46,672 nt of DNA, from the IMG/VR virus record IMGVR_UViG_3300009610_000040, positions 1 to 46,672 of that record; one strand, given 5' to 3'. Of the stretch, positions 7,812 through 40,901 are shown piece after piece. Each line of letters starts with the position of its first letter. The first letter of the stretch is position 1. The notes under the pieces are model-generated. The model made no database searches. It was given only the letters and a program-made list of their open reading frames with translations, and was not told the DNA's origin. A program made the translations under genes and the position numbers. The stretch comes from a virus.

Positions 7812-10228
7812 CCGACCGTGACCAGGAAGTCGTAGGCAATCTCTGAAACGCACCCAATGCACATCAGGTGCATGGCGATTCGATCCCCGACAGCCCAGCT
7901 GATGTTCTTTGCGGGAATCTGATTTGGAAGGTCCAGACTAGCTACATAGTCGGTGTTGCTGAGCACCGTTGCGGCCACATCCAGGTCCTCAACAAAGTTC
8001 TTCGAAAAGCGCACCGTCACATTCTGACCCGAGAGATCAGGCAGCGGAGCCCTCTCTGGGTTGCTGTCGTCGTAGACAGTCACGGTCACATTGCGGACGC
8101 GAACACAGGCAAACGGAGCCCCAATCTCGGCGTTCAGCCGGTCATTAACCATCTCGCCGTTCATCTGGTTGGCCCAGTTGAAGCCAGAGGGCTCATCCCC
8201 CTCCTGGAGAATGAAGTCGTTGGCCTTGAACAGGAAGTTCGTCGGAATCGTGGAGATGCTGAGCCCGCCCGCGCTCTCAATGTCCGCTTGCGTGAGGGTC
8301 CACTCCAGGTCGGGATCGACATCAATCATCAGGGTCTGATCGAAGTCCTCCGAGAACTCCATGGTGGGGCCTTCTTTGACGATCACCACCGGCTCCGTAG
8401 CGATGGCTGGAAGGTCAAAGGTGTCTACCCAGCTGATCGTAGCCCCTCCACCTTCTCCGCCGCCACCCAGGGCTATTTCCTCCCAGATGTTGGCGCTCGA
8501 GTCCCACCTGAACAGGATGCCCTCGTTCTCAGTGACGGTCCTGGAGGTGTTCCCAAAGAGCTGGATGTTGGTGTCTGGCTCGTCATCGTCGTCCTGAAAC
8601 GTGAGCGAAAAGGCGCTCTCGTTGACCACGAAAATGAGGGTGCCGTTGGCATCGTCCTCAGGAGCCCCAATCGTTGGGGTGCCATCCAGCACCATGGGGG
8701 AGCCGGTGATGTTCGAGACCTGAATCAGCGACGAGTCCGTGGTTGGGATCTCATCGTCGGTGGCGTCAATCAGCACCAGCGTCGGCACAATCGAGATGGT
8801 CTGCACAAAGTCGGTGTCCCCAAGGAAGCTCTTGTCCCCGGCAAAGCCTTGGGCCACATCGGTCACTCCACCTTGGTCAATGCCGATGCCCGCGTTGGGA
8901 ATGTTCAGCACATGGGTGGCCCCAAACGAGCTCCAGTTGGGACTCGTCCCAGCGTTCCCGTTGTCCAGGAACTGATGGACGCCGGGGAGGCCGTTGATGC
9001 TCATGACGCCAACAATCGAGCCGCCCACCTGCCACCACTTGCCTCCGGTGTACATGAGGGTCATAGCCTGGCCGTTCGCCAGCGTCACCGACTCGTTGTT
9101 GAACAGCTCCATGTTCGATCCGGGAAGGTCCGACTCGTCCTCAAAAGTGACGGAGTCTGCGCTCAGCACGGCCAAGATGCCGATGGTGCCGTCGTTGGGC
9201 GCGTTCAGCAGGTGCGGCTCCGAAATCATGACCAGATCGTCGCCTGAGGTGTTGGTCACCTTCATGAAATTGGAGGTGAAGCCCAGGGTGGTATTGTTCG
9301 CGGCCAGCGAGATGGAGCTGGGCTCGAACGCAATCGCTCCCCCGAAGTTCTTTGCTCCCTCAAAGGTCTGGTTTCCTGTTGAAACGAGGCCCCTGGCCGT
9401 GTCCGAGGCATCCGGGATGCAGAACTCGTGGTCGTCGGTGGTGCTGGTGATCTCAAAGTCGGTGCAGGTGTCAGCCGTCGAGAAGGTCTGCGTCGTGGCC
9501 GTCAAGGCGTTCAGGGTGGTGATGCCGCTCCCGGCTTCGCCCAACTGATCGGAGGCGCACGCCCACTCGAACGGGCTTGCCGAGGCTTTCAGGACCTGCC
9601 CATCGGCGCAGTCCTGGAGCCCCATGGTCTTGGCCTCCGAGCCGAAGGTCGCCAGCCCGCCATCAGGAGCAAGGCCAGTCACATATTCACCGATTGTTTC
9701 GGTTTCGAGGGTGATGCAGTCTGTGCACACCAGGTCCGTCCCAATGGTGGTTACGCCGCTCAGGGTCTTGTCGCCGTCAATAGTTTGGGTGCCGAAGTTG
9801 ACTACACCCCTCACATCGGGTGCTGCATCCGGGAGGTGCCAGGTGTGCGTGCCTGCGGCACTGGTGATGGCGAAGTCGGAGCCCACGGAGTCCACTTCGA
9901 AGGTCTGAAGGGCATCTGTCTCGCCATTCATCGAGGTGATCCCCGCCCCTCCTCCCCCCGCCCCAACCTCCTGGTAGGCCCCTCCGTTGATGCTCAGCTT
10001 CAGGAGGTTGTCATTCGAGTCGCAGGCCAGGGTCATGCGGCTGCTCTGCGAAACCGCTGGCAGAGCCCGGCAGGCCATGTTGAGGGACCACCTGTCTCCT
10101 TGGGAGCTCCTCTCAAACTTGAGAAAGGACTCGCTCTGGGAGCTGATGGTCATGTTCTGGGCAGAATGCCCCGCCGCGTGCGAAGGCAGCAGGGCCAGCA
10201 GCAAAGCCAGCAGCCAGAGCCGTCTCAT
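7802..10228 (-). CDS. Tail-fibre-like protein with repeats and signal peptide
   Basis: An 808-residue protein with ATG at 10228 overlapping the preceding stop as ATGA. Residues 1-23 form a Sec-type signal (MRRLWLLALLLALLPSHAAG). A fibre repeat occurs three times, at about 96-165, 235-302 and 408-476: a GI(T/S)xxN start, QTF, an FxIxS..H.xxxP-(D/N)-A core, then (R/Q)G...G(x)KxF. Between copies lie two related modules that contain PNDGTIGILAVL / PEDDANGTLIFVV and end in GGKWWQVGG / SANIWEEIA. This repeat style is common in phage tail fibres. The C-terminal part (about 600-808) looks distinct and may be a tip or chaperone-like domain. A signal peptide on a fibre is unexpected. Confidence 0.8.
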   Translation of the reverse strand: MRRLWLLALLLALLPSHAAGHSAQNMTISSQSESFLKFERSSQGDRWSLNMACRALPAVSQSSRMTLACDSNDNLLKLSINGGAYQEVGAGGGGAGITSMNGETDALQTFEVDSVGSDFAITSAAGTHTWHLPDAAPDVRGVVNFGTQTIDGDKTLSGVTTIGTDLVCTDCITLETETIGEYVTGLAPDGGLATFGSEAKTMGLQDCADGQVLKASASPFEWACASDQLGEAGSGITTLNALTATTQTFSTADTCTDFEITSTTDDHEFCIPDASDTARGLVSTGNQTFEGAKNFGGAIAFEPSSISLAANNTTLGFTSNFMKVTNTSGDDLVMISEPHLLNAPNDGTIGILAVLSADSVTFEDESDLPGSNMELFNNESVTLANGQAMTLMYTGGKWWQVGGSIVGVMSINGLPGVHQFLDNGNAGTSPNWSSFGATHVLNIPNAGIGIDQGGVTDVAQGFAGDKSFLGDTDFVQTISIVPTLVLIDATDDEIPTTDSSLIQVSNITGSPMVLDGTPTIGAPEDDANGTLIFVVNESAFSLTFQDDDDEPDTNIQLFGNTSRTVTENEGILFRWDSSANIWEEIALGGGGEGGGATISWVDTFDLPAIATEPVVIVKEGPTMEFSEDFDQTLMIDVDPDLEWTLTQADIESAGGLSISTIPTNFLFKANDFILQEGDEPSGFNWANQMNGEMVNDRLNAEIGAPFACVRVRNVTVTVYDDSNPERAPLPDLSGQNVTVRFSKNFVEDLDVAATVLSNTDYVASLDLPNQIPAKNISWAVGDRIAMHLMCIGCVSEIAYDFLVTVGCR

Positions 10229-10893: not shown

Positions 10894-11574
10894 TTAAGAA
10901 ACAAGCATCTCCTCAGAGTCCTTGCGTTTGTTCTGGTCTTTGAATTTGAGGCGCTTCATCCGGTACTCCTGGACGCGCCTCTCGATGATCCAGGCCGGTG
11001 CCCCGCTCTTGCGGAGGTACCTGGCCATGTTCTCGATTTCGTCGTCATCCTGCTCAACTTTTGCGCGCTTGGGCAGCATGCTGATGGCCGAAGACAGCGC
11101 ATCGACAAGGTCGAACGTGGCTGACATGGGGTGGGTGGCCAGCTCCTCCTCGAGCTCGAGCTGCCCATCTTGGAGGAACAGTCGGCCCTGCGCGATCATG
11201 GGCTGCAAGGCAGCACGGTTGCGAAAGGGCTTCTCAATCTTGTTGGGCTGCAACACCTTCACCAGGGGGATGCGCACGTTCGTCAGGCGCGCTTCGCGAC
11301 GGACGCCGTCGCCAAAGAGGCTCTGCATGCCGTTGGCCTCGATGCCAAACTTGGACGGAGTGAAGGTGGAGTTGACCCAAAAGATCTTCTCGTAGAGCTT
11401 GTCCGTGCTGGTGCGGTCGGCCCAGGCGTACATGACGAAGATGCGGTCCAGCCAGTCCCTGGCCACCACGACGATGGCGCTCCGCGCTTGCTGCTTCTTG
11501 ATTTGGGACTTGCCGCCTGCGGGGTCGCAGAAGGCGGTCCAGTCAACCAGGTCCTCGACTTTGATGGGCTCCAT
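10894..11574 (-). CDS. Terminase large subunit, nuclease half (split gene)
   Basis: A 226-residue protein matching only the C-terminal RNase H-like nuclease of a large terminase, the part that cuts concatemeric DNA at packaging start and end. Acidic residues sit where expected: D17 in AFCDPAGG, E79 in FGIEANGMQSLF, and D155/D158 in ATFDLVDAL. There is no Walker motif. The ATPase half is a separate gene upstream (11,804-12,988), and a small membrane-protein gene lies between. ATG at 11574 overlaps the small gene's stop as ATGA, so this is a true independent start. The halves probably reassemble as a complex. The C-terminus is Lys/Arg-rich. Confidence 0.8.
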   Translation of the reverse strand: MEPIKVEDLVDWTAFCDPAGGKSQIKKQQARSAIVVVARDWLDRIFVMYAWADRTSTDKLYEKIFWVNSTFTPSKFGIEANGMQSLFGDGVRREARLTNVRIPLVKVLQPNKIEKPFRNRAALQPMIAQGRLFLQDGQLELEEELATHPMSATFDLVDALSSAISMLPKRAKVEQDDDEIENMARYLRKSGAPAWIIERRVQEYRMKRLKFKDQNKRKDSEEMLVS

Positions 11575-11804
11575 CAGTCTCGATTCTTGTAGCAGCAGAC
11601 CTTGAGCTCCTTCTGCATCTCCTCGATGACTTCGGCGTAGTGCTCGCGGCCCTTCTGCTCGAGCTGCACAGCCTTGACGGACTCGTTCAGCTGCGCTACC
11701 CGCCCCAGGGCAGCGGTGAACCCGACCGCCAGGAGCACATTCAGGACGTTCAGGAGGATCTTGATGACGAAACTCAAGTCCATCTTCCCGTTCGAGGGTC
11801 CCAT
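11574..11804 (-). CDS. Small membrane protein with coiled coil, inside terminase locus
   Basis: A 76-residue protein with ATGA overlaps at both ends (with the ATPase gene before and the nuclease gene after), a strong sign that it is translated. Residues about 8-34 form one membrane segment (LSFVIKILLNVLNVLLAVGF), followed by a helical, heptad-like part (AQLNESVKAVQLEQKGREHY) and a short Cys-Cys-containing tail. The layout recalls Rz-type inner-membrane spanins or small holins, but it is short for a spanin and no outer-membrane partner is obvious. Function is inferred only. Confidence 0.75.
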   Translation of the reverse strand: MGPSNGKMDLSFVIKILLNVLNVLLAVGFTAALGRVAQLNESVKAVQLEQKGREHYAEVIEEMQKELKVCCYKNRD

Positions 11805-12988
11805 CAGCCCAAACGCAGCCTCCGACCCCCCAAGTGCTCCTTTCGGGCCTTGAAAAGGTCGAAAATCTCGCCTGTCTTAACCACTTTTCCGAACTTGGGG
11901 GGCGGAATGGCGTTCACATCCGGTGAATTTGAGGCTCGCTCCTCCAAAACGGCGTCCAAAGTGTTCTCGTCGAACCTGAGCAGCCCATTTTCGATGCTGA
12001 ACCGCCTAATCAGGTTCATATCGAAGTCAGTCAGCTCCGGATCAGCCGCAGAATTCATGTAAAGCAGGGAGAACAGGGAGCCCAGCTCGTCCTTCAGCCG
12101 CTGCAAGGTGACCAAGGAGAACATTTCGGGAAAGATAGGCTCCCCGCCCTCCACTGCTTTGCGACAGATGACTTCGACAGTGGGGTCGTTGCGCTCGATG
12201 TAGGAGTACAGGTCGTGGACAGCCCAGCGGGTGCCGATGATGATCTCCAGACTCTTGTCTGGGTCGTCCATCAGGGCGCGGCTGGTCTTGTGCCACTCGA
12301 TGGCGTTGTACATGAGCGTTGGCGAGTTTGCGGCCTCCAGGGTCACCAGATCGTCCTTGAGCAGAACGTCGTAGTGGCGGCCAGTCACAGCGCCGCCCAC
12401 GCCGATGGTCTCGATGGAGGCCTCCGGGTACTCCTTGTTGCGCGGGATCATGATTTCTTCGCCGTTCCACTTCTTGGATTCGCGGCGCGCATTGTCCCAC
12501 ACGCGGTGCGGCCAAAAGGCCCGCAGCAGCTCGTTAGCCTCCAGCTGGATCATGATCCATCGGAGTTGGTGCTGCGCGTTGGTGGCAGTCTCGTTGGCGA
12601 GGAGGATGCGCGTGTTACAGCCTTCCATGCCTGGGAAGTAGGGGTTGGAGTCCGCATTCTGTAACAGGATGTGAAGCACCAGGGCTCGACACATCGAAGT
12701 CTTCAGGTGATCGCGGGGCATCAGGAGGAGCTTGCGGTACGGCGGAAACCGCGAGAGGAATCTGCACGCAGGCAGGTGCAACGATTGGGTCAGCCGGTCC
12801 AGCCCCAGAATGCCTTTACCGAAGACGAACAGGTCTGCTTCGGCTTTGGCCCGGAACTCCTCTACGAAGGAGCCGGGGATCGTGGCACCTGCCTGGCGTA
12901 CTTCTCCACCCTTTGTGATAACGAATTCGACGGGCTCAACCCGATCAGCGAAGGGGTCGCCTCCGGCGTGGGGCTCAGGGGAGCTCAT
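11804..12988 (-). CDS. Terminase large subunit, ATPase half (split gene)
   Basis: A 394-residue ATPase of the DNA-packaging motor. ATG at 12988 is chosen because GAGGAGG lies 9 bases upstream; a longer frame has no such site. Visible motifs: a Walker A-like PRDHLKTS at 91-98, Walker B YDVLLKDD at 206-213, and the coupling motif IIGTRWAVHDLY at 250-261. After SLLYMNSAADPEL (about 307-319), where a fused nuclease domain would normally begin, the protein continues for about 75 residues and stops. The nuclease is a separate downstream gene. It overlaps the small-terminase gene by 14 bases. Confidence 0.85.
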   Translation of the reverse strand: MSSPEPHAGGDPFADRVEPVEFVITKGGEVRQAGATIPGSFVEEFRAKAEADLFVFGKGILGLDRLTQSLHLPACRFLSRFPPYRKLLLMPRDHLKTSMCRALVLHILLQNADSNPYFPGMEGCNTRILLANETATNAQHQLRWIMIQLEANELLRAFWPHRVWDNARRESKKWNGEEIMIPRNKEYPEASIETIGVGGAVTGRHYDVLLKDDLVTLEAANSPTLMYNAIEWHKTSRALMDDPDKSLEIIIGTRWAVHDLYSYIERNDPTVEVICRKAVEGGEPIFPEMFSLVTLQRLKDELGSLFSLLYMNSAADPELTDFDMNLIRRFSIENGLLRFDENTLDAVLEERASNSPDVNAIPPPKFGKVVKTGEIFDLFKARKEHLGGRRLRLG

Positions 12989-13658
12989 CGGCAGCGGCCT
13001 CCTCGGCCTGCATGGCTGCCTCCACCTCAGCGAGGGGCCAGGGCTCCTCGAACGTGGTGGGTTTGAAGGGGACGGCAATCGGGGGGCCTGCTGCGACTTC
13101 GCGCAGCGCTGCCTGCATGCGGTCCAGCGAGTCGCGGTCGATCACCAGGTGGTGCGTCCGTTCCTCGTGCACCTCGCGCTTCTTGGGGATCACGCGGTCC
13201 ACGGCGTCCTCGATTTGCTTCGCAGCCATCAGGCGCACGCGGGGGTCGTCCTGGTGCGAGGCCGGGTTGTCGCGCATCTGCACCAGGAATTCGAAGTTGG
13301 GGCCAGCCTCAGCAGTAATTCTCTCGAGGAGCTGCGCGACCGTAGCGGTGCGCAGGGCTTCTCGCTCTTGGGCTAGGCGCACCTGAAAGAGGGGGGAGTT
13401 GATGATGCCGGTGATAGTTTGGGGATTGACACCGATGTCTAAGGCGATGTCTTTGGGCTTCCGCCCAAGGAGCACCTGGTAGAGGATCATCTGGTTGCGG
13501 TCGCTCCAGCGCTTGATGCGCTGGACGGTGGATGCGGGGTCGCGCTGGTGCGCGGTTTCGCCGGGGGGCCAGCCGTTGGCCGCACGGGCAGCGATGGCGT
13601 CCTCCCGCGAGGGAACACGCTCCTGCTGGGTGCGTCCGGGCCGGGTTACTCGTTCCAT
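12975..13658 (-). CDS. Terminase small subunit-like protein
   Basis: A 227-residue protein from ATG 13658; GTG at 13733 would add 25 residues, and neither start has a clear ribosome site, so the N-terminus is uncertain. A helix-turn-helix-like segment (QVLLGRKPKDIALDIGVNPQ) is followed by a long helical region (LLERITAEAGPNFEFLVQMR; KQIEDAVDRVIPKKREV) and an acidic Ala/Glu-rich tail. This architecture and its place directly before the large-terminase ATPase match small terminases, which bind the packaging start site and regulate the motor. It is the first gene of the left late operon. Confidence 0.7.
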   Translation of the reverse strand: MERVTRPGRTQQERVPSREDAIAARAANGWPPGETAHQRDPASTVQRIKRWSDRNQMILYQVLLGRKPKDIALDIGVNPQTITGIINSPLFQVRLAQEREALRTATVAQLLERITAEAGPNFEFLVQMRDNPASHQDDPRVRLMAAKQIEDAVDRVIPKKREVHEERTHHLVIDRDSLDRMQAALREVAAGPPIAVPFKPTTFEEPWPLAEVEAAMQAEEAAADELP

Positions 13659-13785
13659 CTGCGATTTTTGGTCTCTGGGCCGAAGGCCCCTCGAGAGTGG
13701 CCGCAGGAGGCTCTGGGGGGCCGCCAGTTGCACCGCTCGCGCCGCTGGCAGCCCCCCTACCTACCCAGCCACAGGAGGCAGCCTG

Positions 13786-14708: not shown

Positions 14709-16256
14709 TTAGCTACGCTTCATGCTGTAGTTTGCTGCCTTCAAGAAGGCCAGAGCCTCCACGAAGTCGTTAGCCCTGTAGATGCCGTGCTGGTCACAGA
14801 CACCATAGCAGGCCTTCCTGAGTTCCTCGTGAGAGCTCTCAGACTTGCCTGTCACCATCCCATCGCTGAGCCACACCAGCGGCTTAGACTGCTTGGCCAA
14901 CCACACCAAGCTAGGGAAGTCCACGATGTTGCCACCATGGGCATTGGGATGCTGCAAGGGAGTCTTAGAGATCTTGCCCTCCCAAGAGATAATCCGCAGC
15001 TCCCCCTCATCCCCAGAGCCAGCATAAGTAGCTATGCGAGCCATAGGCAGGTGCTGCAAGATGGTGTTGAGATCGTTCTCAGTGAGCGACATAGACCCAC
15101 TGTAGTCGATCAAGAGCGACCCTCCAGGCTTCCTACGCTTCTCAGCGAAGATCCGCCCATCGCTCATGAACCTGGCCATGTGCTTGACCAGAGCACCCTC
15201 ATCACGGGGCCTCGAACCAGCCCTAACCTGGCCACAAGAGGGATGCGGTACACCGTCCTTGAGCGGCATGATGGTCAAGTGCCCCGACATCTCAAAACCA
15301 CCGTCCATGATCTTGGTTTTGCCATGCGGCTTGCCATCGGTTTCGCTCTCAAACTCCTCTCCACCCTTGGCCCAATGGACTCTCATCTCATCTCGACGCT
15401 CCAAGAGACTCGGATCAGGTGGAGGCAGGCCCAACAAGGCCTCAGCACTGCCCCCCTTGGGCCTCGTGAGGTGGAGCAGCTCATCGGTCTTGAACACCTC
15501 ATCCATGCCCCCAAGCACCTCATGAATGCGCCTGAGAATGGCCTTGGTCCACTCGAAGTTCTCGAGCTTCTCCTTGGACTCCTTAGGCTCCTTGTCCATG
15601 TGGACAAAGCAGGCAGCCAGAATGTGCTGAATCCAGCTAGGCATCGCATTCCTCATGCTGCTCACAGGCAGCAAGGGAGTGTCGTTGTAGATTTGAGAGA
15701 CCTCCCTGTTGAGAGTAAAGCCACCAGCATGGTACCTCAGCTTGTGAGGCTGCAAGAGGAACCTAAAGAGCAGCAGCACAATGAAGTGTGCCATCCCTCT
15801 TTGAGAGTAAAGGGCATCCAGGGCAGCCGCCTTAAAGCCGTACCTGATTGCCTCATCCCTCTCAGGAGTCACCCTAGCCATCTCCCCAAAGACCAGGTCG
15901 CTCAAGAGGCCGAGCCTGAGATCCTCAGCCGCTTGAACCAGCTCCTCAGTCAGCTCGTACTGGGCAGCCAGCTCAGAGGGCTTCACGTCCCTCGGAGTGT
16001 ACTTGGAGTGCAGCATCTCGTGACACTGCCCATAGCGATCCTGCTCTGTAGCTGCTCTGACCTGCATCCTACGCTCTTGCAAGTCAGTCTTGCTCTGGCC
16101 TCCCTCCCTGACATCCCATTGCTCTCCGTCAAGGGCATTGGGGAGAGGCAGCGGCAAGTAGCCCGGCTGCCCCTCCTCCTTGACCCAAGCTGAAGTAGGC
16201 ACCTTGCGCCTAACCTGCCTCAGCATGTTCTTGGTCCTCGCCTTGCTTGTAGGCAT
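14709..16256 (-). CDS. VWA-domain protein with HExxH motif (CobT-like partner of MoxR ATPase)
   Basis: A 515-residue protein. The C-terminal third is a von Willebrand A domain with the metal-site motif LLIDYSGSMS (D384, S386, S388) and a second acidic motif VWLSDG (D465). The N-terminal region has CHEMLHSKYT with HEMLH at 79-83, a zincin-like HExxH that is also seen in phage proteins called CobT-like. The middle is helical with a hydrophobic stretch near 155-170. The ATPase gene lies immediately upstream, one base apart. Family knowledge: MoxR AAA+ proteins and VWA proteins work as pairs to remodel or load metals into targets. The target in this phage is unknown, and true cobalamin synthesis is unlikely. 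Confidence 0.8.
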   Translation of the reverse strand: MPTSKARTKNMLRQVRRKVPTSAWVKEEGQPGYLPLPLPNALDGEQWDVREGGQSKTDLQERRMQVRAATEQDRYGQCHEMLHSKYTPRDVKPSELAAQYELTEELVQAAEDLRLGLLSDLVFGEMARVTPERDEAIRYGFKAAALDALYSQRGMAHFIVLLLFRFLLQPHKLRYHAGGFTLNREVSQIYNDTPLLPVSSMRNAMPSWIQHILAACFVHMDKEPKESKEKLENFEWTKAILRRIHEVLGGMDEVFKTDELLHLTRPKGGSAEALLGLPPPDPSLLERRDEMRVHWAKGGEEFESETDGKPHGKTKIMDGGFEMSGHLTIMPLKDGVPHPSCGQVRAGSRPRDEGALVKHMARFMSDGRIFAEKRRKPGGSLLIDYSGSMSLTENDLNTILQHLPMARIATYAGSGDEGELRIISWEGKISKTPLQHPNAHGGNIVDFPSLVWLAKQSKPLVWLSDGMVTGKSESSHEELRKACYGVCDQHGIYRANDFVEALAFLKAANYSMKRS

Positions 16257-16257
16257 C

Positions 16258-17013
16258 TCACTCCTCCGAAGCCAGCCTCAGAGCGTCGAACACCGCCGCC
16301 CCGTCCGGCCCCCAAACCACCTTGCAGGCCAACTGCTCCTTGTCCTTGAGTGCTCCAGGCAGGTTCTCAACCAGGGTCACGAAGTTCTCCCAACCCCGGA
16401 AGCCCACCTGCCTCACAACGTGCTCAAAGTCCCTGGCCGAGCAGCCCTTGAACATGTTTTCAGCCACCTGCTGGTACTTCTTGGGCAGGGTCTTGAACGC
16501 CTCGGGAGCCGGAGCAGCGATGAACAACTGCGCTCCCAAGCGGCTCCTGAGAGCCTCCGGCAGGTCCTCCGGGATGCCGTTCATGGTGGCGATGACCCTG
16601 TGAGGGAACTTCACCTCCAGGTTGGGCTTCTGCATGTCGCCAGTGGGCAGAGTCACAGCCGCCTGATCCGGTGGGTCCAGCACCGCAAACAGGAAGCTCA
16701 GAGCGTCCGCAGACGCCTTGTCGATCTCGTTCAGCACCAAGAGGCCGCCCTGATCCCACCACCTCAGGCAAGGGCCGTCCAGCCAAGCGAACTCACCCGG
16801 CCCAGAGGGCACAAAGTGCCCCCTGAGCTCCGCTGCCGGGGTGTCCTCGGTCATGGTCAGGGAGAACCAGGGCTCCTCCTTGGCCAGGCTCTTGAACGCC
16901 GCCCGGCTCTTGCCGGTCCCCGGAGGGCCGTACAGCACAGCCCTCTGGATCGCCTTCAGAACGCTCAGAACCTGCGGCCATGTGACCAGCTTCGCCTTGT
17001 TGTTGTCGCTCAT
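16258..17013 (-). CDS. MoxR/CobS-type AAA+ ATPase
   Basis: About 251 residues from ATG 17013; a GTG at 17022 overlapping the previous stop (GTGA) would add three residues, but its AAGGAG site is only three bases away. Numbered from the GTG, Walker A is GPPGTGKS at 32-39, Walker B LLVLNEID at 94-101, sensor 1 in VIATMNG near 148, and an arginine-rich ALRSRL near 157-162. NEIDKAS and the short length fit MoxR-type ATPases. The VWA gene follows directly, the usual MoxR/VWA pairing. It probably hydrolyses ATP to remodel a protein target. Confidence 0.85.
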   Translation of the reverse strand: MSDNNKAKLVTWPQVLSVLKAIQRAVLYGPPGTGKSRAAFKSLAKEEPWFSLTMTEDTPAAELRGHFVPSGPGEFAWLDGPCLRWWDQGGLLVLNEIDKASADALSFLFAVLDPPDQAAVTLPTGDMQKPNLEVKFPHRVIATMNGIPEDLPEALRSRLGAQLFIAAPAPEAFKTLPKKYQQVAENMFKGCSARDFEHVVRQVGFRGWENFVTLVENLPGALKDKEQLACKVVWGPDGAAVFDALRLASEE

Positions 17014-17018
17014 AACGC

Positions 17019-17192
17019 TCACCCTCTCCTTGTGGGGCTTTTACCCACCTTTGCGCTGTATGCAGCGCCCTTCTTGTTGCGGTACTTGGATGCTTGCCGA
17101 CCAGTAGGCAGCACCCCGGCCTCTGTGCAGTGTCGCTGGAACTCCTGGTCTTGGGCAGCGAAACTGCGATTCGTGTAGACCTTGTCTGCCAT
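17019..17192 (-). CDS. 57-residue basic protein upstream of MoxR ATPase
   Basis: A short gene starting MADKVYTNRSFAAQDQEF from ATG 17192, with GAGAGGAG four bases upstream, and ending in KVGKSPTRRG. It is basic, with a Lys/Arg-rich centre (GRQASKYRNKKGAAY) and a single Cys. It fills the space between the coiled-coil gene and the ATPase gene precisely. No known family; nucleic-acid binding or adaptor roles are possible. Confidence 0.7.
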   Translation of the reverse strand: MADKVYTNRSFAAQDQEFQRHCTEAGVLPTGRQASKYRNKKGAAYSAKVGKSPTRRG

Positions 17193-31141: not shown

Positions 31142-32363
31142 CTACCTCCCGGATCACGAACCACCAACCTTCATCAACTGTTATGTCCATGCTGCTGGAG
31201 AGTCGAAGGCTCCAGATGAGTTCAACCTTTGGATGGCCCTCTCCCTGGTTGCAGCCTGTGTCGGTAAGCGGGTTTGGTACGAGAAGTTTAAGGATTCCAA
31301 ACTTTACCCTAACCTATACACAATGCTTGTTGGGGTTTCGGGTGGCGGTAAGGGGACGGCTATCAAGAGGGCAGTCTCCTTTCTAGGGCACCTAGACGCA
31401 GACACCCTGGAGCGAATCTCTTACTTCCGAGGCAAGACCACTCCGCAAGCCCTGATCACTTACATGTCGGAGGACATTGTCAAAGAAGGTGTCACCGTGC
31501 ACTACGCCAAGACCTGGGTCTGGTTCGTCGTAGGCGAGCTGGCCATGCAGGTGGGCGGCGGGCCGAAGGCCGACGACTTCATCAAGCACATGACCGAACT
31601 CTATGAGGGAGACTATGAGTTTACTGAAGCCACTCGTATGTATGGGGTCCACCGCATCAAAGACCCTTGCATTAATTGGACCTCAGGCTCCACCAAGGAG
31701 TGGCTGGTGGGCTCGATTGGCAAACAAGACATCCTGTCAGGATTCTTTGCTCGAGTCTGCGCTATTCCTTGCCCGCGCAAAGAGAACTGGAGGGACTATC
31801 CAGATCCGATAATGCCCCCTGACTACGACTCCGTTAATGCTTGGTGTGTAGAGTTCATCAAGCGCCTCGTCCACCAAGAGGGGCGCATGCACTTCGATGA
31901 GGAGGCCGCAGCCTTCAGGCGCATGTGGTACGTCTCCAGGCCTGACCCCACCGAGGAGTTGCTCTGGCCCTTCTTCGAACGCCAGGACGACCACGTCATC
32001 AAGCTGTCCATGCTCCTGGCCCTGGCTGACGGGCGCATGACCATGATCAAACGAGACGTAGAGGAAGCCGTCGAGCTGACCATGATGGTCTACAGCAGGC
32101 TGCCCCAGCTTCTTGAATACGCACACAGAACCCCAGAAACCGAGATGATGGCCTGGCTCTCCGAGATCCTCCGCAACAAAGGAGGATGGATCTCCCACTC
32201 AGCCCTCTTAAAGAAGGCCTCCAACCGAGGAGCGAACAAGACCAAGTTCTCTGAGTTCATCAGCACCCTCATGGAGAGGGGTGATGTGATCATGGCTTCC
32301 AAGAAGGGTACCGGAGGCAAATACTATTGCTGGCACACCTTCAAGAAAGCCGAGATCCCCTAG
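31125..32363 (+). CDS. DUF3987-type ATPase (helicase/primase-like)
   Basis: A 412-residue protein from ATG 31125, overlapping the polymerase end by 17 bases, with AAGGAG 8 bases upstream. Walker A is GVSGGGKGT at 70-78; further conserved-looking parts include VVGELAMQVGGGPKADDFIK and WLVGSIGKQDILSGFFARV, which resemble DUF3987 proteins annotated as phage helicases or primase-associated ATPases. The C-terminal part is a winged-helix-like segment (SALLKKASNRGANKTKFSEF). It probably acts with the polymerase at the fork. No separate DnaB-type helicase is visible in the window. Confidence 0.7.
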   Translation: MALSNDYLPDHEPPTFINCYVHAAGESKAPDEFNLWMALSLVAACVGKRVWYEKFKDSKLYPNLYTMLVGVSGGGKGTAIKRAVSFLGHLDADTLERISYFRGKTTPQALITYMSEDIVKEGVTVHYAKTWVWFVVGELAMQVGGGPKADDFIKHMTELYEGDYEFTEATRMYGVHRIKDPCINWTSGSTKEWLVGSIGKQDILSGFFARVCAIPCPRKENWRDYPDPIMPPDYDSVNAWCVEFIKRLVHQEGRMHFDEEAAAFRRMWYVSRPDPTEELLWPFFERQDDHVIKLSMLLALADGRMTMIKRDVEEAVELTMMVYSRLPQLLEYAHRTPETEMMAWLSEILRNKGGWISHSALLKKASNRGANKTKFSEFISTLMERGDVIMASKKGTGGKYYCWHTFKKAEIP

Positions 32364-35077
32364 ATGGTGCCCAGGGGAACCCGAGTGGACTTAGCCTTGC
32401 CAGCCCCCGGGAACATGTAGGGCTCCACAACCGCCTTCTGGATGAAGGAGCCGCCTCCACCAAACTCGCGGGACAGCGACCGGGTGCCGTGCAACAGCTC
32501 GCTGGAATCTCCGCTCGTCATAGCCCAGAAGGCCGAACTCCCAATCTGGAGTCCGTTGATGAGGGAGCTTCCAGCGGGCGGCACGATGAAGTTCTTGAGG
32601 GCCAGCTCGTTTCCGAGGAGGGAAGTCATAATCAGGTCGGCGTAGATGCCCAGCGAGCCAATCCCGACCATCCCCACCAGGCCAGCCGTGATGATGTTGG
32701 TGATGGTGGGGTCCTCCAGGTTCTCCTCGATCAGCTCACTCGAGAGGGTCTCTCCCATCATCGAGGCGCGGCCCGCGCTCACAGCGATGCCGATGCCCGG
32801 GAACGCAGTCAGCAGGGTGCCCCAGGCCCTCAGAGAGCGCTGCGGGTCGCTCTTGAACATGCCCGGGCTCAGCTCCTTCAGCATGAACTCCATCTGCCCC
32901 AGCCCGAAGGTCTTGTACTGGTAGGCAAACTGGCCCATCGGGTGCTCGTTCCTCCAGAGGGGCATGCTCTGAATCCCACTTTTGAATTGGGTCGAATCAG
33001 AGATCCGCAGCCCAGACCTGGAGCGCATGGCCGCAATCACTGAGGTGTCGCCGTTCTGCACGGCCTTCAGCACGGCCTCGGGGTCCAGGTCCAGCTCGTT
33101 GAACCGGAACTTCACCTTGCGGTGCTCCAGCCCCTTCCTTCCCTGCTTCGCAAGGGTGTTCACAAGCTGGTCGAAGTAGGCCTCGCCAGCCAGCACCGAC
33201 AGCGACCTGTTCCAGCTCTCGATGCCTCGGAAGGCTCCCATGCTGATGCCGACCATGCCCCTGCCCAGCTTCTGAATGCCTCCAAGGGTGCCCTTGGTGA
33301 TCTCCGCTGGGTTGACCAGGCCCTCCATCCCGTTCTGCCGAACATGGGCACCAACCTCACCAATCAGCCTCAGCACCCCATGAGGGTCGTCCGCGAAGGT
33401 GATCGGAAGGGCTCCGCTCTCCTCAGCTACCTTGGAGATGGCCCTCTTTCCGTCGCGCCGCACCCGGGCTGCCAGGTGTAGGCCCGCCTTGATCATGGGC
33501 CTCAGCCCCACTCGCATCAGGGTGTTCAGGGGCTGGGTGGAGTTGGCCAGGAACCCGAGGCTCAGCTTGGCCCCCTGCCACAGATAGAGCTCCCGCAAGA
33601 GAGGGTTGCGGTGGAGGCCCGAGTCCTTCTGGCCGATCTCCAGGTGATAGACCTTGGTGGCGAAGTCCACGTTCCGGGAACCGAACTGCCCGCCCCCACT
33701 TTCAGCATCCAGCTGGGCTAACAGCCTGTGAATGTGCTTGTCGTTGTGGCCGAGGACGGTGGTGTCCGCGATGCGGTAGGCGTTGCGGGTCCAGGTGGCC
33801 ATGTAGGCCTTCTGCATGTCCGCGAGGTAGCCGGTGACGCCGAGGCGGTCCATCTCCAGGTTTCCGGCCAGGCGCTCACTGTTCTTGTTGAGGTACTTCT
33901 CGACGATCTCGACGGTGTGCTTGTAGTTGGTGTGGATGAGGGGCTTGTTGGTCATCATCTGGCGTGCCAGGGCCGCGATGTCCATGGTGCGGTCGCCCGG
34001 AGTGCGACCCTTCGAAGCCTGCTTCTCTAGGAGGCCGATGGCCTCGTCGCGGTTGCGCAGCCCGAACATCTCGATGGCATCGGTGATCATGCCCTCAGTG
34101 ATGCGCTTGTCCTGGACCTTGGACATGTCGAAGCGGTGTGGGAAGTAGCGTCCGGTGTGCCCAGGCATGTGCCCCGGCTGGATCTTGGGCTTCACCTTGA
34201 GGCCGATGACCTTGGCTTCGCTGTAGAACTGGTCGTCCAGCTTCTTGATGTCCTGATAGACCTGCTCCATGACACCCTGGAAGGGGGTGTTGTCCACCAT
34301 CAGGATGTTTCCTTTTTCGTCCTTGGTGGCGTAGCGCAGCTTGTTGAACTCCACGTACTGCTGGTAGCCCTCCAGGACCAGCTCACCACGGCGGCGGTTG
34401 GTGGACTTCCTGTCAGCGTCCCTCAAGAGGGTCAGATTCTTTTGGAGTTTGGCGTTGCTTCTCGCAAGGAGGGCGTCAGCGAGGTTGTTGCGCCTCTCAA
34501 AGAGCTTGGCCATCACCATGCCCGCTGGCCCCATATTCGAGAGCGAGGCGTGCACAGAGGCCAGCCACCTGTTGCCACCCACCAGCTTGTAGCGCAGCGA
34601 GTGCACAGTGCGCTGCCCAATCAGGTAGGAGGACACGTCGTCCAGGTCGGGGAGGCCCTCCAGGTAGGAGCCAATCAGGGCGCCGTCCTCTCCAAGGTCC
34701 CGCCAGTGCATGGTGGGCTCCAGCTTGGGGATGCCCCCATGGGCTGCGTGCCCCAAGATCTCAGCGGACTTCTGGGTCTTGGCGATGTCCCCCTCAGTCA
34801 TGTCCTTCAGAAAGAGTTGGGCCTTGGCCATGGTGGTGGCCAGGTCCTCTCCCTCCTGGCCGAAGACCATGAGGCCCCCACGGATGCCAAGGTCGCGGTT
34901 GATCTTGGGGCCACCGAAGCCGATCTTGCCGTTCTCGAGCTTGTAGGTGCGGAAGTTGTGCACACGGTGGGCGTACTGCGAGAGCTTTGCCCACTCCGGG
35001 TCCGGGTCTTTGGCGCTGACGCGGACCTTGGACTTCGCGAGGGGGCAGAACGGGTCCTTCAGATATTCTTCGGTCAT
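32360..35077 (-). CDS. Large internal virion / ejection protein
   Basis: A 905-residue protein from ATG 35077 (overlaps the preceding stop as ATGA; GTG at 35089 would add four residues). Much of it is soluble and helical, with segments such as KPKIQPGHMPGHTGRYFPHR. The C-terminus has Ala/Gly-rich helices and a membrane-like stretch (NIITAGLVGMVGIGSLGIYA). Proteins of this type and position in podoviruses are ejected internal proteins that help DNA cross the envelope. The 3' end meets the convergent DUF3987 gene in a shared CTAG. Confidence 0.65.
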   Translation of the reverse strand: MTEEYLKDPFCPLAKSKVRVSAKDPDPEWAKLSQYAHRVHNFRTYKLENGKIGFGGPKINRDLGIRGGLMVFGQEGEDLATTMAKAQLFLKDMTEGDIAKTQKSAEILGHAAHGGIPKLEPTMHWRDLGEDGALIGSYLEGLPDLDDVSSYLIGQRTVHSLRYKLVGGNRWLASVHASLSNMGPAGMVMAKLFERRNNLADALLARSNAKLQKNLTLLRDADRKSTNRRRGELVLEGYQQYVEFNKLRYATKDEKGNILMVDNTPFQGVMEQVYQDIKKLDDQFYSEAKVIGLKVKPKIQPGHMPGHTGRYFPHRFDMSKVQDKRITEGMITDAIEMFGLRNRDEAIGLLEKQASKGRTPGDRTMDIAALARQMMTNKPLIHTNYKHTVEIVEKYLNKNSERLAGNLEMDRLGVTGYLADMQKAYMATWTRNAYRIADTTVLGHNDKHIHRLLAQLDAESGGGQFGSRNVDFATKVYHLEIGQKDSGLHRNPLLRELYLWQGAKLSLGFLANSTQPLNTLMRVGLRPMIKAGLHLAARVRRDGKRAISKVAEESGALPITFADDPHGVLRLIGEVGAHVRQNGMEGLVNPAEITKGTLGGIQKLGRGMVGISMGAFRGIESWNRSLSVLAGEAYFDQLVNTLAKQGRKGLEHRKVKFRFNELDLDPEAVLKAVQNGDTSVIAAMRSRSGLRISDSTQFKSGIQSMPLWRNEHPMGQFAYQYKTFGLGQMEFMLKELSPGMFKSDPQRSLRAWGTLLTAFPGIGIAVSAGRASMMGETLSSELIEENLEDPTITNIITAGLVGMVGIGSLGIYADLIMTSLLGNELALKNFIVPPAGSSLINGLQIGSSAFWAMTSGDSSELLHGTRSLSREFGGGGSFIQKAVVEPYMFPGAGKAKSTRVPLGTI

Positions 35078-38000
35078 TTCTTCTTGCACCCTTTCACGCC
35101 CATGGAGCTCGGCGTGGTGGTCCGCTGCTCCTCAGGGATGCGGGCCTGCTTGGCCTCCGTGTTCTGAAGATCCTGCATGGCCCCCGGCAGCTCCTCCACC
35201 CGGGTGGCCGGAACCAGCGGCACCTCTCCAGAGCCCTTCCGCTGAAGCGGAGGAAGGTCGTGGCTCAACTCAGCATCAATGCGGCGCATCCGCAGCACGG
35301 CCACATCCTGGAGGTACATCGCCAGGGTGGTGGCCTTCTCGCGCCGGGGGTCGCTCTTGGGCATCCCCTCCAGCAGCTTCAGCACCTTCTTGGCGTCCAG
35401 GAGAAGGTCGTCAATCGGGATCTTGTCTACGGGCATGCCCTCAAAGCTGAACTTGTCAGCGGACATTGTGAGGAACCTGGCCTTGCCAGCTTTGATGAGA
35501 CGGTCCACCTCCTCGGTGCTGAGGGTGAAAACCTCGCGGACCCCCTTGTCATCGGGGAGCATCTGCTGCACCACCGTGTGGAACTTGTCCTCGCGGATGA
35601 CCTTGAGGTTCATCGAGGGGTTGCGGGTCCCTCGACCCTGCCTCTCCATCCGGGTCAGGTCCTTCCGGGGGATGTAGTGGTCGATGTTCAAGATCTCACC
35701 AACGGTGTTGTCTTCGCGCCAGGTGGCTGAAGCGCCCTTGGCCGAAGGCTCAAAGGGCTCCTTCCCAGAGATCCTGCCCACCGGATAAGTGAGGGGGGTG
35801 GGCTCCTCGGCCAGGACCTGCTTGATGGGGAGCGCGGAGATGCGAGCCCGCTCAGCAGCCTCCAAGGACTCTCGGGTGGACACCTCAGCTAGGGGCTGCG
35901 ACAGCGCCTGCACCACCGCATCCGGCACCAGCAGCTCGCCCTCGGCGTTCACCCTGCCCCTGACCATCATGGAGTTGGTGAAGCGCCCCGGGCCTTCGAA
36001 AGAGACAGTGGCCAGGCCCAGCGGATCTTCGTGCGGGCTCACGATGACGGTGCCCTGCCTCTGGACCTTGCCCCCAGCTATGCCGATGCCCGAACCGGAA
36101 CGCAGTGTGATATTGCTGCTGCCCTTGGGGAGGGCCAGCAGGTTCTGGGTCATGCGGTTCTGGACGGCCTCGCTGACATTCCTCTCGGTTTGGGCAAAGG
36201 GCTCAGAAGGTACAGATGGGTGCTTTAGTCTGCCAGGCAGCCAGACCCCCTGAGCTGGAGGAGCCAGCTCTCCGAAGGACGAAGTGCGCCCCATCACGGG
36301 CTCCGTGGGACCCATCCCTGAGGGGGCCACCATGCGGATGTCCTCGCCTTCGGCAACGCCCCTCCTCTGGAGGACAGTGCGAACCTCGGGCTCCGGGGCT
36401 GGGATGGTGCCGGAGGTGGGCCGCACAAAGGGCTGGGGCTGCGGCTCGGTTTCGTGCAGGTAACTTCTGTAGCTCCTGGCCTCCTTAGTTTTGAGGCGGG
36501 TCCCTGCATCGCGGACGCGGCGCTTGGCCAGCCCAGCCTGATGCTTCACTATGCGGTTGGCCTCAGCCGCCTCCTGTATCAGAAGGTCGGCCTTGTGCAT
36601 GAGGTAGGTTTCGAAGCCCAGCTGCTGGCCCATCTCCTTTTCGACTTTGAGCTCGAACGGAGTGGTGCCATCATGGATCTCGGTGGAGCTGGGAGCCCTG
36701 CGGCTCTTGGGTTCGATCCTCCATGGGGAGAGCTTGCCCTCAGCGTCCAGCTGCATCAGGTCGATGGGGCCGAGGACCTGCCCATCTCCTGTTACCTCGA
36801 TGCCCAACTTCTGAAGGACTCGGCGGTCGAAGTCCGCGTCCGTCATGTTGAGCTCGGTCATCGGGTCCATGTCCTTCATGGCTGCCCGCATCGCGTTCTC
36901 TTTGGTTTTGTACTTGCGGCCCATCTTCGCATGGGTGTCCATGCGGGCTGCCAGGGCCTCCTCCTCGATTTCGGAGTTCACCTCCGTAACAGCCCGCTGA
37001 TAGTCAGGGCTGCGCAGCATCTGGAAGGAGAGTTCTGGTTCCAGAGGGAGGCGGGCCACCATGTTCTCGAGATCCAGGATCTCATCGGCCTTGGACATCT
37101 CGCGTTCCATCTGGCGGAACGCCATGGTCTGGGGGCCTGGATCATCAAAGAGGCGGAGCTGCTCGGGCCAGAAGTCCAGCTGCCCCCCAGCCCTGGGCAT
37201 GCCCACCTCTGGACCAGGGGCCGCAGCCTCCCGGGGGGCACCAGCTACCACGCGACCGAAGGCCGTGTTCGGAAAGCCCCTCTTGTTGGGGAACAGAGGC
37301 TGCGGCGGCCCCACCGTGCCCTTGGGCTTCTTGAGGAACAGCTCGCCGGTCTCACCAGCTTCGGGACCGATGCCCAAAGCAGCCATCAGGTCCTGCTTGC
37401 CGTGAGCACTGTCCACGATCAGGCTGCCGTCCTCGACCATGGGGCGCAGGCCCCTCAGCTCGGACTCCGTGAACTCCAGGTTGATGGTGTGTCCCGGAGC
37501 AAACTGGTGCTCAACCCCGTTGATCTTGAGGCCCATGGCCCGCATGGTGTCGGCCTTGACACCCAGGGTGTCCCTGGTCTCGTCGATGATCATCTTGGGG
37601 CGCGCAACCCGGTCACGATGCAAGGCCAGAATGTGGAGGCCCAGGTCGGATTTCATCATGTCCGGGCTGCGCTTCAGCGCCTTGATGATGAAGTCTGCTT
37701 CCTCGCCTTCAAGGGGGGCTTGGGCTGCGCGGAAGGCCATCTCAGCAGCAGCCTCGCGATTCATCTTGCCACCCGAGGCGTAGATGAGGCCGTCTATAAC
37801 TCGACCAGCCTGCTCATCTATTTCCTTCACGATGCTGGGGTCTTGGGTGTTGCGGAACTTCATGGCCTCCAGCGAGGCCTTGGGGCCGAAGCGGCTGGCC
37901 AACTTGCCAGCACCCATGAAGCCCAGGCCCAAGGCCAGCACCCCAGCGGGAGTGGCAACGAAGTCCTGGAAGGGGTCCTGTTCCTCGCCCCCCATCTTGC

Positions 38001-38652
38001 GTTCGAGGGCGTGCGTAGCCCCAAGCAGCACACCGGAGGACGCATCCTCCATGCCCCGGGCCAGGCCCCTCTCAGTGATCCAGCGCCGGGCCGCCTGCTT
38101 CCCCGTTTCTTGGAGGGCCTGCCCGCTCTCGGAGACAGCCCTGGCCCCCACCTTGGCGGCCACCGACTCAAAGGCATCCGGCAGGAGCTTGCCAGCAGCG
38201 CTCCTGAAAAGGGGACCACCTACACCGGCTGTGAGGGCCGTGCCCAGGCCCAGCTCGAGAACGTCGCGGCCCGCAGCCAGCCACCTGGCCTTGTTGGCCG
38301 AGTCCACCTCAACCCCAAGCATGTCACCGAAGGCCGCAGTGAGAGGGCGTTGGGCCACTCCAGCCTCAAACCTGCGCCCCGCCTCGATGGCAGGACCCAC
38401 CACCGGCAAGTACTCCCCAATGTCAGCTGCCTTCTCGGCTATGCCGGGGGCGTTCTTCTCGATGAACTGGCTGGCCAGCCGCTGCTGCGCATCCGTGGTC
38501 AGGACCCCAAACTCGTGGTGATTCTCTGCCATGAACTGGCGCATGGCATAGACTTGGGATTGGGGGTCCAGCTGCTGGAAAGCTGGGTCCCTCAGATACT
38601 GCCTTCCCTTGTCGGGGAGGGTCAGCTCCCTCTGGATCTGGGGGGCGGGCAT
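35074..38652 (-). CDS. Giant internal virion / polyvalent-type protein
   Basis: A 1,192-residue protein from ATG 38652, overlapping the preceding stop as TAATG. The N-terminus is helical and could be a docking domain (QRELTLPDKGRQYLRDPAFQ). Residues about 75-170 contain two amphipathic or membrane-like parts (AADIGEYLPVVGPAIEAG; ELGLGTALTAGVGGPLFR). The rest is long helices, Pro-rich linkers and a basic tip. No enzyme motif that I can identify, including a transglycosylase. Size, order and composition fit podovirus internal core/ejection proteins. Confidence 0.65.
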   Translation of the reverse strand: MPAPQIQRELTLPDKGRQYLRDPAFQQLDPQSQVYAMRQFMAENHHEFGVLTTDAQQRLASQFIEKNAPGIAEKAADIGEYLPVVGPAIEAGRRFEAGVAQRPLTAAFGDMLGVEVDSANKARWLAAGRDVLELGLGTALTAGVGGPLFRSAAGKLLPDAFESVAAKVGARAVSESGQALQETGKQAARRWITERGLARGMEDASSGVLLGATHALERKMGGEEQDPFQDFVATPAGVLALGLGFMGAGKLASRFGPKASLEAMKFRNTQDPSIVKEIDEQAGRVIDGLIYASGGKMNREAAAEMAFRAAQAPLEGEEADFIIKALKRSPDMMKSDLGLHILALHRDRVARPKMIIDETRDTLGVKADTMRAMGLKINGVEHQFAPGHTINLEFTESELRGLRPMVEDGSLIVDSAHGKQDLMAALGIGPEAGETGELFLKKPKGTVGPPQPLFPNKRGFPNTAFGRVVAGAPREAAAPGPEVGMPRAGGQLDFWPEQLRLFDDPGPQTMAFRQMEREMSKADEILDLENMVARLPLEPELSFQMLRSPDYQRAVTEVNSEIEEEALAARMDTHAKMGRKYKTKENAMRAAMKDMDPMTELNMTDADFDRRVLQKLGIEVTGDGQVLGPIDLMQLDAEGKLSPWRIEPKSRRAPSSTEIHDGTTPFELKVEKEMGQQLGFETYLMHKADLLIQEAAEANRIVKHQAGLAKRRVRDAGTRLKTKEARSYRSYLHETEPQPQPFVRPTSGTIPAPEPEVRTVLQRRGVAEGEDIRMVAPSGMGPTEPVMGRTSSFGELAPPAQGVWLPGRLKHPSVPSEPFAQTERNVSEAVQNRMTQNLLALPKGSSNITLRSGSGIGIAGGKVQRQGTVIVSPHEDPLGLATVSFEGPGRFTNSMMVRGRVNAEGELLVPDAVVQALSQPLAEVSTRESLEAAERARISALPIKQVLAEEPTPLTYPVGRISGKEPFEPSAKGASATWREDNTVGEILNIDHYIPRKDLTRMERQGRGTRNPSMNLKVIREDKFHTVVQQMLPDDKGVREVFTLSTEEVDRLIKAGKARFLTMSADKFSFEGMPVDKIPIDDLLLDAKKVLKLLEGMPKSDPRREKATTLAMYLQDVAVLRMRRIDAELSHDLPPLQRKGSGEVPLVPATRVEELPGAMQDLQNTEAKQARIPEEQRTTTPSSMGVKGCKKK

Positions 38653-40439
38653 TACTTGAGTCCCTTGAGGATTGCGTCGGCTTGTATACGAGCTGCCTTA
38701 GCCCTCTTTGCTGCCTCTCCAGATTTACGTTCTCCTGTCTTGAGGTAGGTACCAACCTTCTTGGCAATTTCCTTGTTGGTCTGTTCACCCAAATAGGCCT
38801 TGATCTTGAAGGCCATCTCCTGATCCTCTTTTGAGTTGCTCGCCTCCAAGGTCGGGAGCAGCTTCCTGAGCCTCTTTTTCTCGGCCTCACCTTCGCTCCG
38901 CTTGCCACGGCCAGGCTTGTCACCTGCTGCGGCATTGAACTTGAACCCAGCGTCGGGGGTGGTGTCCATGTCTTCAGCGGTGGCTGCGCGCATGGGGTTC
39001 ATGTAGCCCTCTTGCGAGACGCCACGCTCGGAGCCCAGCTTCTCTATGGGACTCAGGCCCCACAGCATCCCGGTCTCGTTCTCAGCGTCAGGCCCCCCTA
39101 CGGGGTGGCCCCCCGGGATGTTGCCTGAAGCCGGGAAGATGGTGTTCGTAACTACGCTGGTGATGCGGTTCTCCATGTTCTTGCGCATCGGCCCGGGCAG
39201 CGTCTCGAGCCCCTGCCACGAAGGCTTGCCGAACAGCCCCTGCCCAGGATCGTAGATCATGGCGAGCTGCTTCGTCCTGGACATCACCCGGCTCTGGAAC
39301 TCCTCCGGGGACATGCCACCAGCCATCGTGGCCTCGGCCTGGGTTAGGACCACAGCCCTGCGGGCCGCAATGCCGATCATCCTGTCCTGGGCGGTGCTGA
39401 TCGTCGTCTCGTTGGACTGGCCCGGGATGACCACCTCGTTCCAGAACTCCAACTGCTCCTTCTCGGATAGGGCTAGGTCCTCAGAAGCCGTGATGATGTT
39501 GCCGAAGGTGACGCCGCTACCGTTGATGCCTCCTCCAGAGCCACCACCTCGACCCACCAGGTCAGGGTTGGAGTAGTTGACCCCCGGAGGGATCATCTTG
39601 TACCAGCCCTCGTCGCCCTGGGCGAAGGCCTCCATGATGGCGCCCGCGTTCTCGATGCTCACCCCACCGTCGATCAGCTGGCCGTAGACTGGGAGGAAGC
39701 TCTTGAGCTTCTCATCACTCCGACCCGTGCCCTGCGCGAAGTCTTGGGCCTTCCCGAGGCGGGTGTTCTGATCACCCATGGTTCTGATGCTTCCCAGCTC
39801 AGCTGCCGTGAGCTCCTGACCGTAGTCACCGGCCAGCGCCTGCTGCTCAGGAGGTAGCTTGAAGAAAGCATCGCGCATGCCCCTTTGCATCTCAGGCCTG
39901 GTGGGACCCCTCTCGTAGTAGGCTCCAGGTTGGCCACCTACGTTGGGATCGAATTGCATGCCACGCAGCTCCCCAAACTGGGTATCCTGCGGAATGGGCT
40001 TCCCTGACTCCTCCTGAGACTGAGCGAAGGTCTTGAATGCCTCAAAGGTCTGCCCGTAGGCCTCATCCCTGAGGCCACCAATCAGCCCCTCCCTAATGTC
40101 ATCCATCGCCTTGCGCTGCTTCTGCTGGGCCTTGAAGGAATCAAGCTGCACCACCCCACGAAACATGGCAGCTACATCGGAGCCAGCCGCCGCCTCAAGT
40201 TTCTTTGGGTCTACTACACCGAAGGCTCCACCTTCTTTGAAGGGGTCAATTCCCTGGTTGATCAGCTCATGGGTGTGGAGCACCAGGTCGGCCTTCTCCT
40301 TGGCCTCCTGCACCGGGTCGCCCAGGATCTTCCGCAGCAGCACAGCTGCAATCTCATGGACAGGGTTGGCAGCCCTCGGATAGTAACCCTCGTAGGACTG
40401 CGCCTGCTGCCGACCCAATAGGCCCTGACGCTCAGCCAT
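38652..40439 (-). CDS. Internal virion-type protein
   Basis: A 595-residue protein from ATG 40439, which has AGGAGG five bases upstream (a GTG six bases earlier is less likely). Mostly helical and polar, with a Gly-rich segment (LVGRGGGSGGGINGSGVTFG) and a Lys-rich C-terminus (KAARIQADAILKGLK). It precedes the two giant internal proteins and is probably part of the same core or ejection set. No domain recognised. Confidence 0.65.
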   Translation of the reverse strand: MAERQGLLGRQQAQSYEGYYPRAANPVHEIAAVLLRKILGDPVQEAKEKADLVLHTHELINQGIDPFKEGGAFGVVDPKKLEAAAGSDVAAMFRGVVQLDSFKAQQKQRKAMDDIREGLIGGLRDEAYGQTFEAFKTFAQSQEESGKPIPQDTQFGELRGMQFDPNVGGQPGAYYERGPTRPEMQRGMRDAFFKLPPEQQALAGDYGQELTAAELGSIRTMGDQNTRLGKAQDFAQGTGRSDEKLKSFLPVYGQLIDGGVSIENAGAIMEAFAQGDEGWYKMIPPGVNYSNPDLVGRGGGSGGGINGSGVTFGNIITASEDLALSEKEQLEFWNEVVIPGQSNETTISTAQDRMIGIAARRAVVLTQAEATMAGGMSPEEFQSRVMSRTKQLAMIYDPGQGLFGKPSWQGLETLPGPMRKNMENRITSVVTNTIFPASGNIPGGHPVGGPDAENETGMLWGLSPIEKLGSERGVSQEGYMNPMRAATAEDMDTTPDAGFKFNAAAGDKPGRGKRSEGEAEKKRLRKLLPTLEASNSKEDQEMAFKIKAYLGEQTNKEIAKKVGTYLKTGERKSGEAAKRAKAARIQADAILKGLK

Positions 40440-40448
40440 CTGCACCTC

Positions 40449-40901
40449 CTACAGGACGCCGCCTTCGCTGCTCCTGCTCTTGGTCTTACCAGCTCCAGCC
40501 AGTGCTCCAAGCGCAGCCGTCAGCAGCCCCTGGGTCATGCCTGGAACCTGACCCATCAGCTCGCTGGCCACCTGCGTTGGAATCTGACCAATGCCAGCCT
40601 GGCCCTGCTGGCTCATCTGGGCCAGCGTCCGGTTGCCGTAGGCCGTCCCAGCCTGCCCCGACCTGGCCAGGCGGGCCTCCGTCCCCGTGAGGGCCTGCCC
40701 AAGGGCTTGGCGCTGCTGCGACACCGCCTGCTGGATCATGGGGACCCTGGCTCCCACACCTCCGGTGTTGAGGGCCTCTCCCATCTGGCGGAACAGCTCG
40801 GAGCGGACGTTGCCGAAGCCCGCCCCAAAGATCTCCTCGTTCAGGAAGGGCTGAACGCCCTTGCCGGTCTTGCCACTGGATTTGGAGCTCCCACCACTCA
40901 T
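40449..40901 (-). CDS. Small internal virion-type protein, Gln/Ala-rich
   Basis: A 150-residue protein from ATG 40901 (GGAGGTGCCC upstream and ATGA overlap). It is Gln/Ala/Gly-rich and helical (MIQQAVSQQRQALGQALTGT; RLARSGQAGTAYGNRTLAQM). The C-terminal end is Ala/Leu-rich (LLTAALGALAGAGK), which could insert into membranes. It fits the small internal or ejection proteins that precede the large ones in podoviruses. Confidence 0.65.
   Translation of the reverse strand: MSGGSSKSSGKTGKGVQPFLNEEIFGAGFGNVRSELFRQMGEALNTGGVGARVPMIQQAVSQQRQALGQALTGTEARLARSGQAGTAYGNRTLAQMSQQGQAGIGQIPTQVASELMGQVPGMTQGLLTAALGALAGAGKTKSRSSEGGVL

Follow-up and report, generated by a model that had tools for sequence, protein, structure and literature searches.

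Separate genes encode the ATPase and nuclease domains of the large terminase in a clade of phages

How the phage large terminase (TerL) silences its nuclease while DNA is being pumped is an open question, which has mostly been approached by mutating single-chain enzymes or truncating them to individual domains. In the locus described here, two activities otherwise tied together in one chain, pumping and cutting, lie on separate proteins. The locus belongs to the IMG/VR virus record IMGVR_UViG_3300009610_000040, of which positions 1 to 46,672 (46,672 bases; hereafter the window) were analysed. Does it encode a functional two-chain motor, a damaged gene or the parts of a protein that is later rejoined, and what is the role of the small membrane-protein gene that separates the two halves?

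All of the terminase genes lie on the minus strand. The ATPase half (394 aa; 11,804–12,988) runs from an ATG at 12,988 to a TGA at 11,804, and is followed by a 76-aa gene (11,574–11,804), with one predicted membrane helix and then a charged, coiled-coil-like stretch, and by the nuclease half (226 aa; 10,894–11,574). A first-pass annotation had placed these three ORFs here and had quoted their motifs (PRDHLKTS, YDVLLKDD and GTRW in the ATPase; D17, E79 and D155/D158 in the nuclease), all of which are present, but its description of 4-base ATGA overlaps needs correction: the junctions read TGATG, each a clean stop and start overlapping by a single base, with the A of the stop TGA shared with the ATG. 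A probable small terminase (TerS) gene (12,975–13,733), HTH-like and with a weak match to the terminase small subunit family phrog_2538 (E = 0.005), lies upstream and overlaps the start of the ATPase gene; a comparable gene precedes the ATPase gene in two related contigs, L014 and L016. Each TerL half occurs once in the 46,672-base record. A portal gene is found in the genome too, and together with the TerS-like gene it provides genomic context for packaging, no more.

Just upstream of the terminase genes is a MoxR-type AAA_5 ATPase (16,258–17,022, minus strand; Pfam, 1.6e-15) followed by a 515-aa VWA-like gene, the pair spanning 14,709–17,022 (minus strand); a vWFA gene is also found near the terminase of Podoviridae sp. 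ctLwi270. Long virion genes of 909, 1192, 597 and 844 aa (32,360–44,783, minus strand) match internal virion proteins only weakly, one of them with a match to the endolysin-domain family phrog_342 (1.5e-5), and they look like podovirus-like ejection proteins.

HMM searches against PHROGs placed both halves on the same family, phrog_38, the ATPase half at positions 270–524 (E = 8e-32) and the nuclease half at positions 547–722 (E = 1e-18), while Pfam, searched with the window proteins, recognised neither. As the two matches occupy adjacent stretches of phrog_38, they represent a single terminase divided at its interdomain linker. AlphaFold2 models of each half were built from alignments of split relatives. 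In the ATPase model (pLDDT 84), residues 35–316 superpose on residues 2–294 of the PhiV-1 TerL structure 8dgc (Z 25.7; 260 residues at rmsd 2.4); the next structural neighbours are the T4 gp17, HK97 and P74-26 terminases. The half is a P-loop terminase ATPase domain carrying a Walker A-like PRDHLKTS, which follows the variant form PR(D/E)HxKT, a Walker B KDD and a GTRW coupling motif; the Walker A lysine (K96), the Walker B pair (D212-D213) and the coupling residues (G252-T253-x-W255) are invariant across 24 aligned ATPase sequences. Model and profiles together exclude a nuclease domain at the end of this gene, which would have spoken against the split.

The nuclease half yielded a model of higher confidence (pLDDT 90). 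Foldseek matched it to 8dgc (E = 3e-8), the RB49 gp17 nuclease (1e-5) and the G20c nuclease (2.5e-4), with further matches to the P22 terminase nuclease and RuvC. Across 26 aligned sequences D17, D155 and D158 never vary and E79 hardly does; these are the conserved acidic residues of an RNase H/RuvC-like nuclease.

To place this arrangement among related genomes, relatives were collected by scans with either half separately, a search that is independent of the split. The same division, which the first-pass annotation had proposed looking for, was found in 32 distinct contigs, made up of the window itself, 30 more from viruses and a single one filed under a Dehalococcoidia genome, and again in a second small clade. 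In the window and its 31 relatives the two domains never share a polypeptide; given their separate ORFs, we describe them as a split variant of TerL. Identities to the window ATPase half are mostly 37–62%, and all relatives at or above about 41% are split. A tree of 65 rows groups the 30 usable split members in one clade (UFBoot 99, SH-aLRT 100), with no fused member inside; the only sequences known for this main clade are metagenome contigs and a single MAG contig. The second split clade, also fully supported (100/100), has six members (ctLwi270/L009, L032, L034, L086, L091 and L092). A further 65 more distant loci, some of them near-duplicates, are fused, and the fused relatives fall outside. 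The tree prefers two fissions, requiring two changes and showing one change in 3% of bootstrap trees, though in an AU test on 28 rows a single origin is not rejected (p 0.40). Comparison of the window with contig L017 reveals purifying selection on both halves (dN about 0.35; dS 1.2 or saturated).

The split is real, and is neither a sequencing error nor the remnant of an intron. Metagenome assemblies often contain single-base indels, and damaged terminase copies do exist among the relatives: TerL of L103 (2559–4145) falls into two adjacent ORFs through a mid-domain break in the ATPase, of another kind than the split in the window, and the nuclease half of L060, the contig filed under Dehalococcoidia, has two in-frame TAG codons (9700–9770) just before DPAGGK, for which a decayed prophage, contamination or error are candidates. 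An artefact or a decaying gene would nonetheless have to account for 32 contigs with the same split, each with its own stops and starts and with different DNA between the halves, and for the purifying selection on both; we give this explanation almost no credence. Indels that restore one long frame, in particular, are very unlikely because the split recurs in independent assemblies. Scarcely more probable is that the halves are exons around a self-splicing intron, or are joined by a split intein or a frameshift, in the way supposed for phages phD2B/K1E and reported for Twort. Introns are known to target TerL genes (PMC4246154, PMC6409932), and among the relatives several have an intein in the ATPase half or an HNH endonuclease between the halves. 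Against this, no group I or II intron was detected by Rfam in the window and seven related loci, whether at the gathering threshold or, within the region, at a permissive one (an intron of an undescribed class would escape this search), and no homing endonuclease appears among the ORFs and Pfam matches between the window halves. The halves have their own ends, with one-base overlaps with the intervening gene, and some pairs in relatives abut or overlap in other frames. In addition, about 14–16 nuclease residues precede the first catalytic Asp, too few for half of an intein.

Intein-like insertions do occur in TerL ATPase domains among the relatives, at three sites. One is at Walker A, in L058 (171–3923) and the fused L059 (2443–5052); another lies inside the GT/RW coupling motif, in L027 (27–1148), L056 (7521–10,178) and L058, which thus has two insertions; the third follows FAC and precedes the LNAP/MNNP motif, in the split L009 (5929–7584) and the fused L080 (7980–10,274). 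Separately, a Twister-P5 ribozyme scoring above the Rfam gathering score was found in the split-clade phage contig L021 (908–970, minus strand).

The first-pass annotation had further suggested that the membrane protein between the halves might coordinate packaging with lysis or the membrane, a suggestion that finds no footing in the comparison of loci. The protein is strongly hydrophobic over a single stretch starting near residue 10 (Kyte-Doolittle mean 2.16 over 19 residues); it has no Pfam or PHROG family match and, by phmmer, no homologue among the proteins occupying the same place in the other split contigs. Spacing between the halves ranges from overlap up to about 5.7 kb: the junction of the halves has become a permissive slot. 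Seven members (L024, L030, L045, L047, L053, L063 and L068) have no gene there. Small membrane proteins of different families occupy the slots of the window, L014/L025/L069, L021, L051 and L056, whereas L027 has a GTA_holin_3TM holin (E = 4e-12), L060 a recombination endonuclease VII (Endonuclease VII/HNH, E = 2e-20), L019 a weak Endonuclease VII/HNH match, L015 an RNase T-type exonuclease (E = 3e-9) with a relative in L066, and L029 a metallophosphoesterase (E = 7e-5). Lipoprotein-like proteins are found in the slots of L048 and L015, and other slots hold unknown proteins. By phmmer, cargo is shared only within L014/L025/L069, L048/L056, L055/L073 and L015/L066. A first tBLASTn comparison had suggested the 76-aa protein as a conserved third subunit, which the slot comparison ruled out.

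Because slots range from empty to filled with unrelated genes, and the window protein has no homologues among them, we regard the membrane protein as cargo, more likely a passenger than a part of the motor. Its one-base overlaps with both halves do suggest coupled translation, and small proteins of strong hydrophobicity are somewhat commoner in the slot than in the flanks (11/47 versus 43/411, p 0.015, from crude ORF calls and uncorrected for shared ancestry). However, the protein is not conserved: besides the seven cargo-free members, many carry soluble cargo, and the slot protein of ctLwi270 lacks a membrane helix, making a role as an integral coordinator tying packaging to membrane or lysis highly unlikely. 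A lysis function carried in the slot, as a small holin or an inner-membrane spanin-like protein, would be compatible with a two-chain terminase and is a serious possibility, if somewhat short of probable. Lysis genes sit among the terminase genes in T7-type phages, the 76-aa protein has an N-terminal membrane helix followed by a charged coiled-coil-like tail, and the slots of L048 and L015 contain lipoprotein and membrane-protein neighbours. The enrichment of small hydrophobic proteins, together with the GTA-type holin recognised in the slot of L027 alone, suggests a lysis role for some slot proteins. For the window protein itself, the missing Pfam or PHROG match weighs the other way, and no lysin or spanin partner was recognised beside its gene in the window.

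The two-chain large terminase put forward on first reading is borne out by homology and fold, by catalytic residues that do not vary and by a split kept in 32 contigs. There are two genes with two folds, the active-site residues are conserved in each, and so is the division between them. We consider it very probable that the locus encodes a functional enzyme, in which a single-chain TerL underwent ancient fission and the halves would now be joined by protein contact. The ancestor would have been a single-chain T7/PhiV-1-like (phrog_38) TerL, cut in the ATPase–nuclease linker; each piece has its own start and stop, in the same order and on the same strand. How the chains assemble, and in what order they act, can be sketched only conditionally. 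Docked on the portal as a ring, the ATPase chain would presumably be the motor, while the nuclease chain would bind to it by protein contact and make the initiating and terminating cuts. TerS would mark the DNA, the ATPase-bound nuclease chain would cut it and the ring would pump, with the nuclease returning or being reactivated when packaging finishes.

A candidate for the contact is found at the end of the ATPase chain. About 75 residues (approximately 317–394; 11,804–12,040, minus strand) extend beyond the aligned range of solved TerL ATPases. Model confidence is low here (pLDDT mostly 40–83), and most rows of the ATPase alignment stop near residue 318. The window protein ends in RRLRLG, an R-x-R/K tail found in 25 of 32 clade members (related sequences rather than 32 independent events) against a background of 4.6%, as counted in 9-residue stretches sampled along the whole of these proteins. 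Many fused relatives, for their part, have a TGY C-terminus after the nuclease, which occurs in none of the split members of the main clade. Two roles suggest themselves for this new tail, recruitment of the nuclease or a takeover of portal docking: with it, the clade-specific extension may stand in for the lost covalent link or, alternatively, for a tail at the nuclease end with which fused relatives may dock on the portal. The nuclease might go further and behave as an exchangeable subunit, recruited through the new ATPase tail, joining the ring just for the start and the end of packaging and leaving during translocation, such that cutting is set by binding rather than by intrachain domain movement; this stronger reading is possible, though somewhat less likely than not. 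The nuclease half could also act with a different partner.

That a phage clade has kept pumping and cutting apart, on different chains, across a large evolutionary distance indicates that covalent linkage is not needed. In such a natural two-component system, motor and cutter could be mixed, titrated and labelled separately. There are consequences for virus discovery as well, as searches that require a full-length TerL would misread these phages, and counts of TerL genes as a measure of genome number would likewise be misled.

Divided terminases have been described before: TerL lies in two ORFs in phages phD2B, K1E and Twort, reported as intron cases (PMC4246154, PMC6409932), with the intron in phD2B/K1E thought to be spliced out to give one protein (PMC4246154). 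In the literature searched, mostly outside subscription journals, these were the only cases reported, and no conserved two-chain TerL was described. Those genes resemble the window in having other DNA between two ORFs, but theirs are interrupted by introns with homing endonucleases, whereas the window has no detected intron and both of its halves are complete genes. A closer parallel is ctLwi270 (MW202554.1), where TerL is annotated as two CDS. It shares the order of ATPase gene, small gene (62 aa) and nuclease gene, with 36% and 25% identity in the two halves, but belongs to the second clade; its ATPase half has no long C-terminal extension but does contain an intein, and its slot protein is soluble and unrelated to that of the window. 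In phi29, the chain of the motor ATPase gp16 likewise has no working nuclease, but that phage packages unit genomes and is not known to have a cutting subunit, whereas the window, judging by its sequence, appears to retain an active nuclease as a separate gene. The gp16 nuclease is described as vestigial (PMC7672431). With the PhiV-1/T7-type TerL (8dgc; phrog_38), finally, the window has both domain folds and the active-site residues in common; there they form one polypeptide, and here two.
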